The notes under the pieces are model-generated. The model did no database searches, had not been told where the DNA came from, and worked only from the letters and a program-made list of their open reading frames with translations. Positions 7,210 through 62,845 of a DNA stretch of 64,000 bases are shown piece by piece (position 1 is the first letter of the stretch; every line of letters begins with the position of its first letter). Origin of the DNA: a virus. Where the stretch lies: IMG/VR virus record IMGVR_UViG_3300042556_001828, positions 1 through 64,000 of that record. The stretch is one strand, 5' to 3'. A program made the translations under genes and the position numbers.

Positions 7210-10200
7210 TCAGACCACCAAGTGCAGCTCAATGTTGTTGAGCGGCGCCGGGACAACAAGGTCAAGAACGATTTCAATACGATCCTTCAGCAGCGGATGA
7301 ATCTGCAGCTTGCGGATACTACCGCTGATGAGCTGCGACCCAAGCTCTTCTGTGTAACCGTTACTCGACAGGAAATCGATCACGGCTGTGACTTCGTATT
7401 TCAGCCGTGCGACCATGCCCGGTTGCGCGTTGGTGCGGCCGATAAACGGACGCAGGCGGCGCAGGAACAGGTACGACATGCTATCCACGTTGCGGCGGAT
7501 CATCTCTTCCCGACGATTCAGGTCGAGGTTGTCCGTCGTCAGCGCATGCCGCGTGAACGGCGTGCCGTCCTTGTCTTCAGTCACGATCCACGTTCCCGCC
7601 TCGGCAAGCCGATTAAGCTGCGTTTCGTTGAAGTACTTGTACGACCGGCTGTAGTCGTCAAAACCGGCGACTTCCACGTTCGTCAGCGGCTGGTGGGGCA
7701 CAACACCCGACACCAAACCAGCCAGCGCGGCCGACAGGTAATAGCCGGGCTGAACTGTGCCAGCCTCGCCAACCTGATCGGGCCACACTGCGCACACGCG
7801 ACGATTCGACAGCGAACCAGCCTGTTGCACAATGTCGTCAACGACTTCGTTGCGAGTACGGTTGTGATAGATCTCAACGCGCTGCGGCACGGTCACGGCG
7901 ACGTCGCCGCCCGAGTACAACAGCAGTGTCGATTCCGAAACAACCGCGTCTACAACGTATTCTTCGTATTGCTCTTCACCGAAACCGTCAACAGTGTAGT
8001 TATACCGAACGACGTCGCCCGGACGCACGTCGTTGGTGATGAAATAACCGTTGCCCGACGTGACCGTAAGCCGCGTGTACTGCGTGTTGGTCGCATTCGG
8101 ATCATCCGACAATGTCGCCAGCACGGGGTCGACTACTTCTTCGCCAAGCACGCCTGCGATCAGCGCGCCCTGACCAGCAACCTTCGCTACCGGGTGCGCC
8201 TTCACGGCGAAGAACCCAGCCTTCCAGTTGTTGGCGATCTCGTTCGACTCGCCGCCGATGTGCGCCGCCCACAGGTTCTGCACCCTGCGGTCGAACGTCA
8301 TCGGGACAAGGTTGTACATGTCGTCGCGACCCTTGATGCGCTCAAGCACTTGCGCCCATTTGGCGAGGTCCGGTCCGAGCGAGCGGCCTTCCTCGTCAAA
8401 CAGTTCGGGATCGGCAACCGCGGTGTACTTCACAACTGTACCATTGCTGTTAGAGAGCGCCTTGTACACGCCCCATTTCAGCGGGTTATCGGGGTCAAGC
8501 TGGCCCTTGATCTGGTCGAGGTTAGCCACGTCGCTGATCGAGTTGACCTCGTCGGCCAGCTCAGCCAGCCACTCGCGGTACTCGACGTACACCTTGCCAG
8601 CCATGACGTTCAGCGGCTGCTCAGCGCCGGCGCTTGTCCACTCAGGGTGGTAAGCGACGATGCCTTCTTGCACGCAGATCTGGGTATCCTCGTACCAGAA
8701 GTTCGTCATCGGCGCGAAGCCAATGCGGTTCTTCGAGATCTGGATATCGTCCTTGATGAACAGCTTGAGGTCCATGTCCTCACCGCTGATCAACTGGCAG
8801 GTTGCCGTAGCTGTTACCGACCCGCCGCCGGCGGGCGGCGCCGCAATCGTAATAGTCGGGGCAACGGTGTAACCGGCGCCACGATTTGTTACGGTGATGC
8901 CAACAACCTTACCGGCGTTGTCGCCAGTACCGAGCACAGCCGTGCCAGTAGCTGTCGCAGCGCCAACAACACCTTCACCCGGAGCCGAGAACGTTACCGC
9001 GGGCACAGTGCCGTATCCGCCGCCGACATTCGTGATGCTGATCGGGCCCACCTTGTCGACCGGCACGTTGTCCTGCGTCAGCAGTGCAACCGGCAGGTCG
9101 TCGCGGAGGATAAGCTTGCGCACCGGGCCAGCCTGACTGGAATTCACGGTGATGTACCACTTGTCGCCCTTGCGCAGACCGGGCACAGCGTAATCGTCTT
9201 CTTGACCGTCGGTGAACGACTTAAACTTCACCTTCACGCCGTTCGTGCCGATGTTTACGCTGACCGCGTTGCCACCGACGCCGTCGCCAGCCACTTCAGT
9301 CGGGCCGGAGAAATCGAGGCCCTTGACGGTGCGCACGGTGATCTCGGGGAGATCAGCCCACACGCCGCCCTTGGTGCACTCGATGACGTAAGTGTCGTTC
9401 TTGGCACCAGCGTAGGCACCCAGAATATCAAGGTCGCCCATCACGCCGTTCACGGACTCACCAGTCGCGTTAACGCCGTCGGCGTCCGACACCGCTTTGA
9501 CCTTTTCGTAGGTCTGCTTAACGTCAAACTTCCACTTCTGGCCGACCACGAACTGGTCGAGGTTGACTGTCGTGAAACGTACCGACAGGCCGCGGGTGCC
9601 GATAAAGGTCACGCCATCAGCATCGTCGAAATCATTCGGCTGAATTTCAGCCACGTCGTCGGTGCCACTGGCAGACGTGACGCGCAGACGCGCGGCAGCG
9701 CAACCAGCCACCGAACTCTTAACAACTTCGACAACGTACTCTTCCTCGACGTAACCGGCGGCAAGGCCGTCATAATCGTTGGCGCCTTCGTCCTCAGCAT
9801 CCAGCACGGTCACTGCCACGCTGTTGTCAACGCCATCAATTTGCGAAACTGTAACGTCAACGCCGTTAACGCTTAAGGCTGTATAACTGTCTTGGTTGTT
9901 TACGTCAGCCGTCGCCGGCAGAATGCGCGACGGCACGAGGTCGCTGGCAAAGCCAGTGACGTACGTGCTAAGCACAGTCTCTTCGCAGTCGTTGTCGGCG
10001 CTTACGCTCCGAAGCTGAACGACGTCGCCGAGCTGTACGTCACGATCAAAAAACACACCGGATCGCGGGTAGGCCGCGCCGTTCGACTTGAACGACAGCG
10101 TGCTGGACTGAATCCAGTTCATCTTGCCCGGGACGGCAGTGATAGTTGTATCACTCTCGCCGAGATTGTGCACGTAATATTGCAGCATGGCGTCGTCGAT

Positions 10201-26148: not shown

Positions 26149-28023
26149 TCAGGGCTTCCACCCACTTGTCGTTCCGGTCACGCCAAAGTTTTCGCCTTGT
26201 GCCAGCGCCGGAACATAACTGCTACCGGCGGTATTGCTCGTTAAACCGCGGTGTACGCTGTTCAGCAGGCCTTTTTCTTGGTACGACCCGAGCATGCGGG
26301 TCATCCAGTCAGGATCGTTGGAGATGTTCGACATGCCGCGTACCATTTCGGGCTGAAACGGCGGCGGCTCTCTGTGCGCTTGAATATTTGTAATGCCGTG
26401 CTGGCCCAAGGTTTTAACAACGTTTTTTGTGATTGGCGTGCCGACGGAATAATGCAGCGCGGGCTGTTCCAGATAGTGCCCAGAAAGCGTACTCGGCGCG
26501 CCGGCTACGCTCCCGTCGCGCGGCGTCCAGTTTCGCTCCAACATCGAATACGGCACGATATCGTCAGGGGAGTAGTCGCCGTGCTCGTCCGTCATGCGCA
26601 CGTGGTTAATCAAGCCGCGCGAAAGCAACTCAATGTTTCTGCGGTGGGCTGTAATACCGCTATTTTGCATCACCTGCCGCATCGCTTGGACAAAATAGCG
26701 GCGGCCTTCACCCACGCCTTTATGGCGGACAATTTCAGCTGGGTTCGGCATACCCTCCGAAATTGTGTCACCAGCTTCGATCTCGTCACCCTTTTTAACC
26801 GTAACGCCGCGGTCCGTTGGGACATAATGGTCTTGACCGTTAATTTGCACATAAAAGCCGCCCTGTGGCGCAGGACGCACTTCTTGGACATGCCCATCTG
26901 CCTGAGCGTGTGTTGCCCCGCCGGGAAACTTCTTCGGCACCTGTACAAGCGCGTTGAGCGCTTTAAAACCAGAAATCCCGCCTGCGCCACCGACGCCGCC
27001 AGAGTGCTTGGAGCTAATCTGACTTTGTGTGACAGGCTCTGAAAGCGCCTGCGCGGCTGCAATACCCACATAGTCTCCGACAGGCGGCAGATGGCCTTTT
27101 TCGCGATAGCCGACGTCATTTGCATAGACACCGCCGTCTTCTGGGCCGCCGACAATTGGGCTGCGCACTAAGATATCTTTAACGCCCATCTCTTTGATGT
27201 CGCGCATGATTTTGGGCGTCAGCACAGTATTGCGCTTGTACGGCCCTACGGGTCGCGACAGCATTGCGCCCTCGTTGTCGGGGTCGTCTATGTCCGTGGG
27301 AAAACCGCGCTCGTGGGCGTTGGCTAGGCGCTCTTGGTCTTGCTCGTCTTGGTCCGTGACAAGCAGTCTGTGCGCCATCTGCGTAAGCTGCTTGCCGTAG
27401 AACCCGGCGTCAGCTGTGGCGGTCTTCAGGTCAATTACACCCTTGCGGGTGCCGAACGCGCCGGCAAAGTACTCCACGGGCGTTAAGCCTTGGGCGTATC
27501 CGCGCATAACAGGAATTGGAATAGGCTCGCCGCGGTGGTCGAGATACTGCATGTCGGCGCCAAGGATCGAGTTCAGCTGGAACTTGTTGCCCACGCCGGA
27601 TCCAGCAATCTGGTGCGCTAACGGATTATCGTGCCCGTGGGCCTCGTTATACACATCATCCACAAGCTGCCGCTGCGCTTCCGACGCCAGCTTGAGTATT
27701 TTCGCATTGCGCTGCTCGTCGTTGAGGCCCCTATCCGCCAGAATCTGCCGCAACTGCTGTTTTACTTTCAGCTGCGTGTGCTGCGCCGCCAAACTCGGCC
27801 GCACGTCTTTCAGGCCGAACGATAAGCCGTTTGTTGTGTACGCGGAATCAAGCGCCACGTCATGAAGCTTTTTCATGACTTCGCGGTATTTTTCCGGGTA
27901 TTTCTTGGCTAATTCTGTCGCCAGCGCGCCCGTGTTTTTCTTGTTCAAAACGCGCGTATAGTCCCGCATGTCTTCCGGCAGCGCGTCATTAACCAGCAAC
28001 TGACCTAGCGTTGTTTTCAACAT
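26149..28023 (-). CDS. RNA polymerase beta-prime C-terminal subunit
   Basis: 624 aa. Conserved beta-prime blocks occur in order. AGSGVGNKFQLNSILG and GEPIPIPVMRGYAQGLTPVEYF (140-186) match the SGARGNxxQ region. FGTRKGVIDLKTATADAGF (190-208) is the bridge helix and start of the trigger loop. VGIAAAQALSEPVTQSQISS (319-338) matches the VGIIAAQSIGEPGTQLT block. It completes the active site begun in the 1814-aa protein, where beta-prime is cut after the Asp triad. Cellular beta-prime is one chain, while phiKZ-type phages split it. The subunit acts in transcription of phage genes. Confidence 0.9.
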   Translation of the reverse strand: MLKTTLGQLLVNDALPEDMRDYTRVLNKKNTGALATELAKKYPEKYREVMKKLHDVALDSAYTTNGLSFGLKDVRPSLAAQHTQLKVKQQLRQILADRGLNDEQRNAKILKLASEAQRQLVDDVYNEAHGHDNPLAHQIAGSGVGNKFQLNSILGADMQYLDHRGEPIPIPVMRGYAQGLTPVEYFAGAFGTRKGVIDLKTATADAGFYGKQLTQMAHRLLVTDQDEQDQERLANAHERGFPTDIDDPDNEGAMLSRPVGPYKRNTVLTPKIMRDIKEMGVKDILVRSPIVGGPEDGGVYANDVGYREKGHLPPVGDYVGIAAAQALSEPVTQSQISSKHSGGVGGAGGISGFKALNALVQVPKKFPGGATHAQADGHVQEVRPAPQGGFYVQINGQDHYVPTDRGVTVKKGDEIEAGDTISEGMPNPAEIVRHKGVGEGRRYFVQAMRQVMQNSGITAHRRNIELLSRGLINHVRMTDEHGDYSPDDIVPYSMLERNWTPRDGSVAGAPSTLSGHYLEQPALHYSVGTPITKNVVKTLGQHGITNIQAHREPPPFQPEMVRGMSNISNDPDWMTRMLGSYQEKGLLNSVHRGLTSNTAGSSYVPALAQGENFGVTGTTSGWKP

Positions 28024-59133: not shown

Positions 59134-61065
59134 CTAATTCTTTCGGGCTACAGCTAACTCTGCCGCTTTACTTACAAATTCTTCTGCGCTAGCGAACTTA
59201 TGGTCGTCAGAAAGCAATGGATAAGCATGGGCCAGAGTCTTGGGCTTAAGTAACCCATACTCTTTCATGAGCTTGGCGGTGTTTAAGATATTTTTACGCT
59301 TGTTAGCTGCGTGCATATAAGCGGCAGCTACGCCAGCACCCGTCCCAGCTAGGCCCACACCAGCGCCGTCCATGCCGCCCAGATACCCCAAGCCGGCCGT
59401 GCCCAGTAAACCAAGGGCACCAGCACCAGCAGCGTACATCTTGGGATCCGGCGCCATATCGCTGAGGTTATATTTGTCTTGGCCCTGTGAATTTCTCACG
59501 ATGTGGCGCAGGGATGACTGAAAGCCATCGCGATTCAGGCCCCGAGCGCGCAATGTGTTGTCATCGGGCCGGACAAGGGCTTTGAGCTGGCCATATTGCT
59601 GCACAGCGTGTTGAATCTGGTCAGGGCCTGCAAAACTGGAATAGTTATCTAAACCCAAGGGGCGGGCAGCTTTGTATAGCTGGCTGGCGGCGCCGTATTT
59701 TTGCTGCATCGCTTTAATCGCGGCTGGGCTTAGTTGCGCGCCAATTTGAAACGCGTCGGCTTTTTCGCCTTTTTCGTTTACAAAATCAGCTACTTGCCTC
59801 GCATGCAAACCGTCATCAAATTCTTCTTCTCGTTCATTTTGTCGATAAATTTTTGTGCCGTCAGGCAGCGTGGCGTAATGCATGCGATCTTTTGGATATT
59901 GTCGGCCCTTACGCGAATTTGGTCCGCCGCCAAACATATAAGCTGCGCCAAGCCCGCCAGCAGTAAGTAAACCGCCACCCGCAATTGCCGCGCCGAGCGT
60001 TGGATCAAATGCTGTTTTGGCCAGCATCAGCGCCGAGCACTTGCAGTTCCACTTGCGCAGGGACTTGTTAATACGCGAGTCTGGGTCTTTGGCTGTCGCG
60101 GCGCCAGTATTTACGCTCTTCATGCCGCACATACGCGAGCAGAAAGAGTTCTGTCGCTTAGCCCGGTCGCCGCTGGGATTAGACTCAGTGACAGGCGCTT
60201 TGAGATTCCCGCCGTGTTCGCGCTCGTAGCTCTTGCGGCCCTTCTCGTTCAGGCCGCCTTCGTCGTTCTTACCAGCACTGCGTTGCCATGCGGGAGAACT
60301 GGCAGCCGTTTTGGAACTATCTGGTGAGTTCTTTGTGCCAAACGCCGCATTGCCGTTGATGTTGCCAGACGCAGACAAAGCACCAAACGAGTTGATCGGG
60401 TTGGCAGAAGGCGAGTTCATGCCTGCGCCCTGTGCTTGTGCCGGCTGGGCAGCTTGGGGCTGTTGCGGCTGCGCTGGTTGGGCCGGCTGCTGCATACCCA
60501 TCGGCATAGGGGTGGTATTAACGGGCATGGCGTATCGCTTGATTCCGACGTTTTGCGGCATTTTTGCGGCCATTCGGGCCTGCTGCTCAGCTTTTTCGTT
60601 CTCAATCGCCTGCATAATCGGCTGCGAAAGAACGACGGCAAGCTTCTTCAAAAGTGAATTAACATCACTGTTAACAGTTTCACCCGCCAATTCCTCGCTA
60701 CTCTGGTTGACTTCGTCCTCATTCCGCGTCTGGATCGGCGAAGCCTTATCTTCCCCCGCGTTCTCTGCCGTAACGTGTTCATCGCCGGCAGCTACGGGCT
60801 TGTCTGAGTGCGGAATATCTACCTTGAGCAGCCCAGAGTTCGCTTTTTTAACACATTCGTTGTAAATCGTTAGCCCAATAGTGTTTACGGCAAAAGCCTT
60901 GTTAATGTTATCCATAGCTGCGGCCTTTTCCTTGTCATCGGGTTTCTTTTTATGCGCATACAGGGGCAAGTCTTTCTGCCCCGGGTATTCTTTTGCCCAA
61001 CGTTTCGCGATATCTGGATGCTGCGACCAGAGGAAACGCCGCTGCTTCTCGGACTTAAATGGCAT
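59134..61065 (-). CDS. Large virion-type protein with MPFKSEKQRRF start
   Basis: 643 aa from ATG 61065. It starts MPFKSEKQRRFLWSQHPDIAKRWAKEYP, a helical N-terminal motif often seen in phage proteins. A Pro/Gln-rich linker (GMQQPAQPAQPQQPQAAQPAQAQ) lies around 200-220. A Cys-rich SFCSRMCGMKSVNTGAA, DPDSRINKSLRKWNCKC segment follows (about 305-345). Gly-rich hydrophobic helices come next (LGAAIAGGGLLTAGGLGAAYMFGG; GAGALGLLGTAGLGYLGGMDGAGVGLAGTGAGVAAAY). An ejection-type role is inferred. Confidence 0.55.
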   Translation of the reverse strand: MPFKSEKQRRFLWSQHPDIAKRWAKEYPGQKDLPLYAHKKKPDDKEKAAAMDNINKAFAVNTIGLTIYNECVKKANSGLLKVDIPHSDKPVAAGDEHVTAENAGEDKASPIQTRNEDEVNQSSEELAGETVNSDVNSLLKKLAVVLSQPIMQAIENEKAEQQARMAAKMPQNVGIKRYAMPVNTTPMPMGMQQPAQPAQPQQPQAAQPAQAQGAGMNSPSANPINSFGALSASGNINGNAAFGTKNSPDSSKTAASSPAWQRSAGKNDEGGLNEKGRKSYEREHGGNLKAPVTESNPSGDRAKRQNSFCSRMCGMKSVNTGAATAKDPDSRINKSLRKWNCKCSALMLAKTAFDPTLGAAIAGGGLLTAGGLGAAYMFGGGPNSRKGRQYPKDRMHYATLPDGTKIYRQNEREEEFDDGLHARQVADFVNEKGEKADAFQIGAQLSPAAIKAMQQKYGAASQLYKAARPLGLDNYSSFAGPDQIQHAVQQYGQLKALVRPDDNTLRARGLNRDGFQSSLRHIVRNSQGQDKYNLSDMAPDPKMYAAGAGALGLLGTAGLGYLGGMDGAGVGLAGTGAGVAAAYMHAANKRKNILNTAKLMKEYGLLKPKTLAHAYPLLSDDHKFASAEEFVSKAAELAVARKN

Positions 61066-61140
61066 AGCTCTGATATTAGCTCCCAAGCTGGATAGAAGTA
61101 TTTTGGCACAAGGGGTGGGAAATGCAAAGCGCTGATAGCT

Positions 61141-61176
61141 AAAAAAAAGCGCAGAGGCCCTTGTGGGCGTGCGCTG
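61141..61176 (-). terminator. Rho-independent terminator
   Basis: On the minus strand AGCGCACGCCC-ACAA-GGGCctcTGCGCT is followed by eight Ts, just after the stop of the gene at 61185-61622. It shares its hairpin with a second terminator at 61992-62026, with paired base changes. Confidence 0.9.
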
Positions 61177-61622: not shown

Positions 61623-61725
61623 GGCATAGATCTCCGCACCTGTGGGTTAGCTCAGCGGTTACGCAACAACTGAAAGCTATAGGTGGTTCACTATATATGC
61701 CCGGATTTCGACTTTTATTTAGATA

Positions 61726-61803
61726 TCAAGTCCCCCACGCATCAGTCGCGTCGTCTTCTTCAATCTCGCCGAACATGTGCATGAATACATCCTCTATGTC
61801 CAT
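61726..61803 (-). CDS. 25-aa acidic micro-ORF
   Basis: MDIEDVFMHMFGEIEEDDAT then DAWGT, with strong SD GGGAGGTG 5 nt upstream. Very acidic. Too short for family matching; the SD makes translation plausible. It sits in a 875-nt gene-poor stretch, so might be a leader peptide or regulator. Confidence 0.4.
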   Translation of the reverse strand: MDIEDVFMHMFGEIEEDDATDAWGT

Positions 61804-61991
61804 GACGCACCTCCCGGGATATTGATATCTAAGCCCACGACTATTTTACTTGAACAGGGTGCCGGAGCTGCCAGACCAACAACGGTTTGCCGTAACTAGT
61901 TGTGGCTGTTGGGTTTACGTCACACGGCTAATAGTTGCGTGCCGTAAGTCCATTATTCACAACACTTTACGACGATTGGCCGCTGATAGCT

Positions 61992-62026
61992 AAAAAAAAG
62001 CACAGAGGCCCGTGAGGGCATGTGCT
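61992..62026 (-). terminator. Rho-independent terminator of the structured-RNA region
   Basis: Minus strand AAGCACATGCCC-TCAC-GGGCctcTGTGCTT followed by eight Ts. It shares over 25 bases with the terminator at 61141-61176 including downstream AGCTATCAGC, and the stem changes are compensated. Confidence 0.88.
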
Positions 62027-62098
62027 TTGGTGTCCCATGTTCTACGGTGGCGGACAGACACCTTTAGATGCGGGCTTTCGAGACGCCACGCCGCATCT

Positions 62099-62140
62099 GC
62101 CAGACTTTCACTGGCTCCCATTTGTGTCGGTGGGTTACCC
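62099..62140 (-). repeat. RNA module copy 2 (of two)
   Basis: Minus strand AACCCACCGACACAAATGGG then AGCCAGTGAAAGTCTGGC. Stems CCCA/TGGG and GCCAG/CTGGC. Paired with copy 1 at 62260-62301; stem bases differ but pair in each. Confidence 0.6.
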
Positions 62141-62259
62141 AAATGCGCAGCGGTTTGATTTTACCGGCCTGCGTGCGCGCAACAGCCGGGGTTACGGGAC
62201 AAGTTTTACGCCATTACCGATTGGGCGAAAGGCTGCCGATTAACGCACGGCAGCACCAC

Positions 62260-62301
62260 GTCCAAGAGTTTCACTGGACCCCATTTAATCGGTGGGTTTC
62301 C
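62260..62301 (-). repeat. RNA module copy 1 (of two)
   Basis: Minus strand AACCCACCGATTAAATGGGG then TCCAGTGAAACTCTTGGAC. Stems CCCA/TGGG and GTCCA/TGGAC. Same sequence plan as the copy at 62099-62140, 120 nt apart. Confidence 0.6.
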
Positions 62302-62497
62302 ATCAAGGCTTTTTTTATACCCGCCTGAGCTTGTCCGACTGTTCCAGTGGTCGGGCACCTTATCCCCGTAGTTAACCGTACGGGTCGGTGTGTCAGCACA
62401 GGCAACACTTTTGGAAAAGCGCTGGCTGTGCTGACAGCTATAGTTCTACACCTAATATGCCGGCTTTTTGCCCGGTATTTAGGTGTGTTAGGCCTGC

Positions 62498-62845
62498 TCA
62501 TGCTTTGAGCCCGCCATGTTTCTCAATCACGGCTTCGACCACTTCGACGGGCACGTAGGCGTAGACCGTCTCTGTGGGGTCGTCGGAGTTCTCAGCGTAC
62601 GCCAGCAGCTCCTCCACGCGCTGAGACGGGTAACCGATCTCGACCTCCGTCCACGGCCCAATACTGTCGCGAGGAGCGCAGTAGTGGGTCTGGCTGGCCT
62701 GCACAGACAGCGACAAGCCATCCGCGCAGGTGATAGGCGCCACCTGCCGGAAGCCCCGCGCCTGCATGTAGGGAGTATTAAACTCGCCCTTCAGGTTCGC
62801 GGAATCGAGCAGGTAGGCATTCAGATCAAATTTAACAGCGGTCAT
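62498..62845 (-). CDS. Hypothetical protein
   Basis: 115 aa (MTAVKFDLNAYLLDSANLKGEFNTPYMQARGFRQVAPITCADGLSLSVQASQTHYCAPRD...). Beta-rich first half; C-terminal helix YVPVEVVEAVIEKHGG. No family recognised. Codon-like composition and an AGGACA start context support a real gene. Upstream of the structured-RNA region. Confidence 0.5.
   Translation of the reverse strand: MTAVKFDLNAYLLDSANLKGEFNTPYMQARGFRQVAPITCADGLSLSVQASQTHYCAPRDSIGPWTEVEIGYPSQRVEELLAYAENSDDPTETVYAYVPVEVVEAVIEKHGGLKA

Follow-up and report, generated by a model that had tools for sequence, protein, structure and literature searches.

The window, which is the whole stretch of DNA analysed here (64,000 nucleotides), is part of a virus record of 73,372 bases from an uncultured giant phage, and its local genes lie on the minus strand. 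A 115-aa gene (62498-62845, minus strand) borders a noncoding gap that extends to the next transcription unit, as the initial annotation had indicated by placing a structured RNA of about 500 nt between two genes. Further along are a 25-residue acidic ORF with a good ribosome-binding site (MDIEDVFMHMFGEIEEDDATDAWGT; 61726-61803, minus strand), matched in relatives by small acidic ORFs in the same place, and a 650-aa gene (59134-61086) with homologues in 26/50 records. A tmRNA (record positions 66193-66534, equal to L004:6193-6534, minus strand) and genes for tRNA-Glu, Val, Leu and Lys lie just outside the window, all within ~12 kb of the RNA. The tmRNA encodes the tag peptide GTFNSVPALAA, which is common to the related record G006; tags differ in other relatives, and some of those were read by ARAGORN as long, unlikely peptides. 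The gap lies in a slot that has the tRNA/tmRNA island on one side and the 650-aa gene on the other.

On the minus strand, 26149-28023 encodes a beta'-type subunit of a multisubunit RNA polymerase (Rpb1 domain 5 in Pfam, E 2.6e-23). IMG/VR has 64 loci that match this protein, a large number of them on ~200-kb contigs, whereas the matches in named phages (such as Salmonella phage Arash and Vibrio phages D69/D181/D148) are only ~24% identical. The "moraphage" lineage was considered as a candidate for this clade, and is probably another one, given that its authors detected no genes for RNA polymerase (PMC12619734).

Promoter, terminator and coding potential

The gap contains a predicted noncoding RNA of ~457 nt on the minus strand (about 62448-61992), with the 5' end placed from a promoter and the 3' end from a terminator; none of the six frames shows a coding signal. 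The promoter (62447-62486, minus strand) is specific to this phage lineage, and consists of CTAAAT (62477-62482), 14 nt, and SGGCATAT (GGCATAT at 62455-62461). Sites of the form CTAAAT-N14-SGGCATAT were present in 12/12 relatives tested, on one strand only per genome, the gene strand; the spacing was fixed at 28 bases in all 12 though 9-16 variable bases were permitted, and a reversed-pattern control gave no sites. A promoter matrix from the relatives, applied to 21 slot loci, located sites on the gene strand and gave no match on the opposite one. On the minus strand of the 64-kb window, this matrix scored 44.3 at 61726 and 39.2 at 62486, values that are slightly flattered because both sites are among the ~70 of the training set; the next site scored -5.7, and the highest score in simulated genomes (n = 20) was 9.4. 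The higher-scoring site (61687-61726, minus strand) serves the next gene. An inverted repeat at 62451-62484, previously taken as the first hairpin of the RNA, is promoter DNA and not RNA, and the predicted transcript is therefore ~457 nt, so that a discrete unit of about the proposed size stands, at less than the 506 nt originally delimited.

The intrinsic terminator (61992-62028, minus strand) is strong and lies on the same strand as the genes, as annotated, with a GC-rich stem (GCACA...UGUGC) and a run of eight U; downstream of these comes the tail that the lineage has in common, AGCTATCAG. Paralogous terminators at 61130-61175 and 61981-62026 are 88-89% identical over 46 nt, and both run on (minus strand) into this tail, which is common among the lineage's terminators.

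ORFs in the RNA region scored -0.41 to +0.01 log-odds per codon, with all six frames negative, whereas ten of this phage's genes scored 0.105 to 0.259; the coding explanation was rejected on these scores, in agreement with the earlier judgement that no ORF is plausible. A 76-aa ORF at 62271-62501 has an in-frame 20-nt identity to G031/G037 that was taken as chance; the identity includes an A7 run, and the ORF scores -0.34 per codon. Judged at the sequence level, the promoter, the terminator and the absence of coding define a stand-alone noncoding unit.

Predicted fold and a duplicated hairpin plus T-loop module

Folding z was -4.4 for a 516-nt span including promoter and terminator, and -3.0 (460 nt) or -2.6 (exact transcript) for the transcript. 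A control of 63 other 460-nt segments from the same strand of the same genome gave z ≤ -3 in 9 cases, after which folding energy was dropped as evidence. The density of stems by itself, on which the initial annotation had leaned, is not above the genome background, whereas the promoter and two T-loop hairpins are above chance.

The hairpin quoted in that annotation for its 10-bp stem (GTCAGCACAG/CTGTGCTGAC), here called H1, does exist at 62391-62436 (minus strand), with two 22-nt arms (62391-62412 and 62415-62436) that are 86% complementary. The remaining helices are predictions, all on the minus strand. The centroid fold has a hairpin H2 (62356-62390; CACC/GGUG, inner CCCGUA/UACGGG) and a domain at 62197-62336, closed by pairing of 62328-62336 with 62197-62205 (a helix of the AGCUUGUCC/GGACAAGU type). 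Both the minimum-energy and the centroid folds predict a hairpin GCUGCCG-UGCGUUAAU-CGGCAGC (62232-62254) and a hairpin AGAUGCGG/CCGCAUCU (62066-62098).

The RNA carries two copies of a module in which AACCCACCGA-N-AAAUGGG precedes a T-loop hairpin G-UGAAANN-C, each identified as a direct repeat and by a T-loop descriptor. Copy 1 (62255-62301, minus strand) comprises the hairpin CCCA-CCGAUUAAA-UGGG (62280-62296) and the T-loop hairpin GUCCAG-UGAAACU-CUUGGAC (62260-62279), and copy 2 (62093-62139, minus strand) the hairpin CCCA-CCGACACAAA-UGGG (62117-62134) and the T-loop hairpin GCCAG-UGAAAGU-CUGGC (62099-62115). Reading of the sequence shows that the copies differ by one compensatory change, in the fifth T-loop stem pair, where copy 1 has U-A and copy 2 has G-C. 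On both strands of the 64 kb, the descriptor matched only these two hairpins, and of 20,000 simulated RNAs, 70 had one match and none had two, a comparison in which the two T-loops are not independent because they are copies of one module. The exact two-part module pattern had no match in IMG/VR; a looser pattern gave 6 matches there, lacking a T-loop after the hairpin, and these were treated as chance.

RNA-A and other noncoding units in related phages

Nine sequences from closely related phages carry RNA-A, a noncoding RNA of ~350 nt, in this slot. Its carriers are the large records G011, G007, G003, G018, G038 and G035 and the fragments L230, L231 and L235, of which L230 and L231 look identical at RNA-A; G043 has a diverged copy. 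RNA-A loci lie on the minus strand at L105:11439-11886, L104:12715-13160, L110:12159-12603, L103:10817-11261, L109:14355-14801, L210:12212-12657, L235:4821-5263 and L102:11088-11769, and on the plus strand at L230:5458-5904. The consensus fold has 119 pairs, including a closing helix of 24 bp. In 36 of these pairs, one or more sequences had changes on both sides; shuffles gave 15.4 ± 2.6 such pairs, and sliding the partners gave 3-9. Of the alignment cells, 96.3% were paired, against 37-43% with partners slid, a control that favours the structure to some degree because this alignment had also served to derive it. Helix 1 by itself had 12/24 pairs changed on both sides. No credible match to RNA-A was found in Rfam at E ≤ 1, in a DNA search of a phage collection, or in a pattern search of GTDB genomes, and the core model found none in 50 further wider-clade records, among which there was no positive control. 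By these comparisons of sequence, RNA-A is a new, uncatalogued large RNA with a covariation-supported fold, for which the proposed label of a new class is plausible; for the copy in the window, the refuting condition named by the initial annotation applies partly, since relatives lack most of its stems.

The RNA in the window shares with RNA-A the slot, the T-loop hairpin G-UGAAANN-C and the type of terminator tail, and has the closing-helix motif GTYRRCACA/TGTGYYRAC in the form of a short-loop hairpin. Among 2.2 Mb of fetched DNA, the two halves of the closing-helix motif occurred with an 18-40-nt gap only in the window and G006, and with a 41-420-nt gap only in the nine RNA-A copies. G006 (L106:8445-8620) retains the 3' part of RNA-A at 81-86% identity together with the closing helix, the core being gone, and H1 has the same form as its short-loop closing-helix hairpin; H1 is therefore best read as the collapsed closing helix of RNA-A, from which the core would have been deleted. 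Downstream of the terminator, a small acidic ORF is present together with a phage promoter in the window, in G006 and in several RNA-A genomes. H1 is the only helix in the window RNA with counterparts in relatives, namely helix 1 of RNA-A with its 12/24 doubly changed pairs; for the other stems, the comparison proposed by the initial annotation found no homologues.

RNA-A differs from the RNA in the window in having a ~300-nt core and, in most copies, a preceding sigma70-like promoter (TTGACG-N16-TAGAAT or a close variant), in place of which the window has the phage-type promoter. Searches of the window RNA for this core by nhmmer and by a covariance model of the 3' core returned nothing credible; lacking this core, the RNA falls short, at the level of sequence comparison, of a full RNA-A. 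For the ~360 nt after H1, pattern scans of IMG/VR and searches of 77 related records turned up no homologue, BLAST found no homology between this 3' domain and the other noncoding RNAs of relatives, and searching the phage collection at the DNA level with the region gave no match.

Distant relatives have other noncoding promoter-to-terminator units of 300-900 nt in or near the slot: ~610 nt in G043, ~690 nt in G044, ~330 nt in G015, >900 and ~670 nt in G033/G034, and ~377 nt in G025/G027 (87% identical); the second G033 unit has a homologue in G024 (77% over 138 nt). Large units were located on the plus strand at L108:4142-5080 and 8391-9060, L202:7200-7690 and L121:3173-3550, at reverse strand positions 2202-2576 of L212, 10049-10660 of L102 and 8949-9250 of L115, and at L120:10892-11579 (minus strand). 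By BLAST these are mostly unrelated to one another, and those scanned matched no Rfam family. Large noncoding units are thus abundant in the island and turn over fast. A motif UAAGUC-stem-CCCAMGG-stem-GC is common to otherwise unalignable noncoding RNAs (e.g. G007, G044, G033), with sites at L104 (reverse strand 8952), L107:4137, L108:4523 and L120 (reverse strand 8768).

Interpretation and comparison with known large RNAs

The region is probably a stand-alone structured noncoding RNA gene of ~457 nt. This reading is adopted because the RNA has its own promoter and terminator, no coding signal, no Rfam match and two T-loop modules; because its closing-helix motif is confined to the window, G006 and the covarying RNA-A; and because it adjoins a tRNA/tmRNA island in a slot where relatives have other large units. 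The claim of a large phage noncoding RNA is upheld to this extent. Counted against the gene are a folding energy within the range of the genome, a ~360-nt domain with no homologue, the absent RNA-A core and a promoter type that differs from that of RNA-A. The minus strand would be transcribed, probably by a multisubunit RNA polymerase that the phage itself encodes, from the phage-specific promoter as far as the intrinsic terminator. In this phage, RNA-A would have been reduced to H1, followed by a different domain of ~360 nt with the two modules, and the RNA may accumulate in infected cells and work as a folded RNA through the T-loop modules. The likeliest role, suggested tentatively and by analogy, would be a scaffold or decoy like GOLLD or ROOL, with the T-loop modules docking onto the RNA itself or onto a translation-related RNA or protein.

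The main rival is a decaying relic, in which RNA-A has been lost and a functionless spacer with background structure is left over between a surviving promoter and terminator. The missing core, the core-deleted state of G006, the folding energy near background and the 3' domain with no homologue all fit such decay, but the promoter is at full strength, the terminator is strong, H1 is well paired and two T-loop modules are not given by chance, so that a relic is considered unlikely. That the RNA is a divergent member of a known family (GOLLD, ROOL, HEARO, RNase P RNA, tmRNA, group I intron) is very improbable. It does adjoin a tmRNA and tRNAs, and T-loops are present in several large RNAs; however, a covariance model search of Rfam (GOLLD, ROOL and others), as the initial annotation had advised, brought no family to its gathering threshold, permissive cmscan filters at E ≤ 10 gave two spurious matches only (mir-3170 and sar), and the scanned RNAs of relatives were unmatched while true tmRNAs in the same loci scored 102-145 bits. 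An RNA acting in cis, as a leader or 3' UTR for the neighbouring genes and compatible with their shared direction, is scarcely credible given a promoter of its own downstream of the 115-aa gene, a terminator ahead of the next ORF and a separate promoter for the next gene at 61726.

Beyond the stand-alone RNA gene itself, it is conceivable, though doubtful, that this ~200-kb phage lineage maintains a hypervariable RNA island with several unrelated new RNA classes of 300-900 nt, one of them founded by the RNA in the window, which, built from two copies of its hairpin and T-loop module, would form an RNA-only assembly or serve as a decoy against the host in an arms race. To our knowledge, GOLLD and ROOL, for all their striking structures, are not known to have a function, and relatives that keep, gut or replace an RNA at one locus provide a natural experiment on the purpose of such RNAs. 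RNA-A, with its ~350 nt and covariation-supported fold, is ready for transcript mapping and structure work, and the lineage promoter offers a means of finding such RNA genes in these genomes by sequence alone.

Phage K has large noncoding RNAs near its tRNA genes, lnc001 and lnc002, whose transcripts are abundant and one of which has an early promoter of its own (PMC9241854); that phage is unrelated to the one studied here, and the region search of the phage collection gave no sequence match. GOLLD and ROOL form RNA-only cages, a closed 14-mer for GOLLD, the purpose of which is not known (PMC12286853). GOLLD resembles the RNA in the window as a large phage noncoding RNA often near tRNA islands, and ROOL as a phage or prophage noncoding RNA of several hundred nucleotides near tRNA islands (PMC12286853), but GOLLD is often >800 nt and ROOL 659 nt in the solved example, against ~457 nt. 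Neither the GOLLD nor the ROOL covariance model matched at gathering score or at E ≤ 10, and by covariance model the RNA belongs to neither family. The earlier comparison nonetheless remains apt in size, in independent transcription and in location at a phage tRNA island (a tmRNA and four tRNAs within ~12 kb), and in setting and scale the RNA appears GOLLD/ROOL-like.
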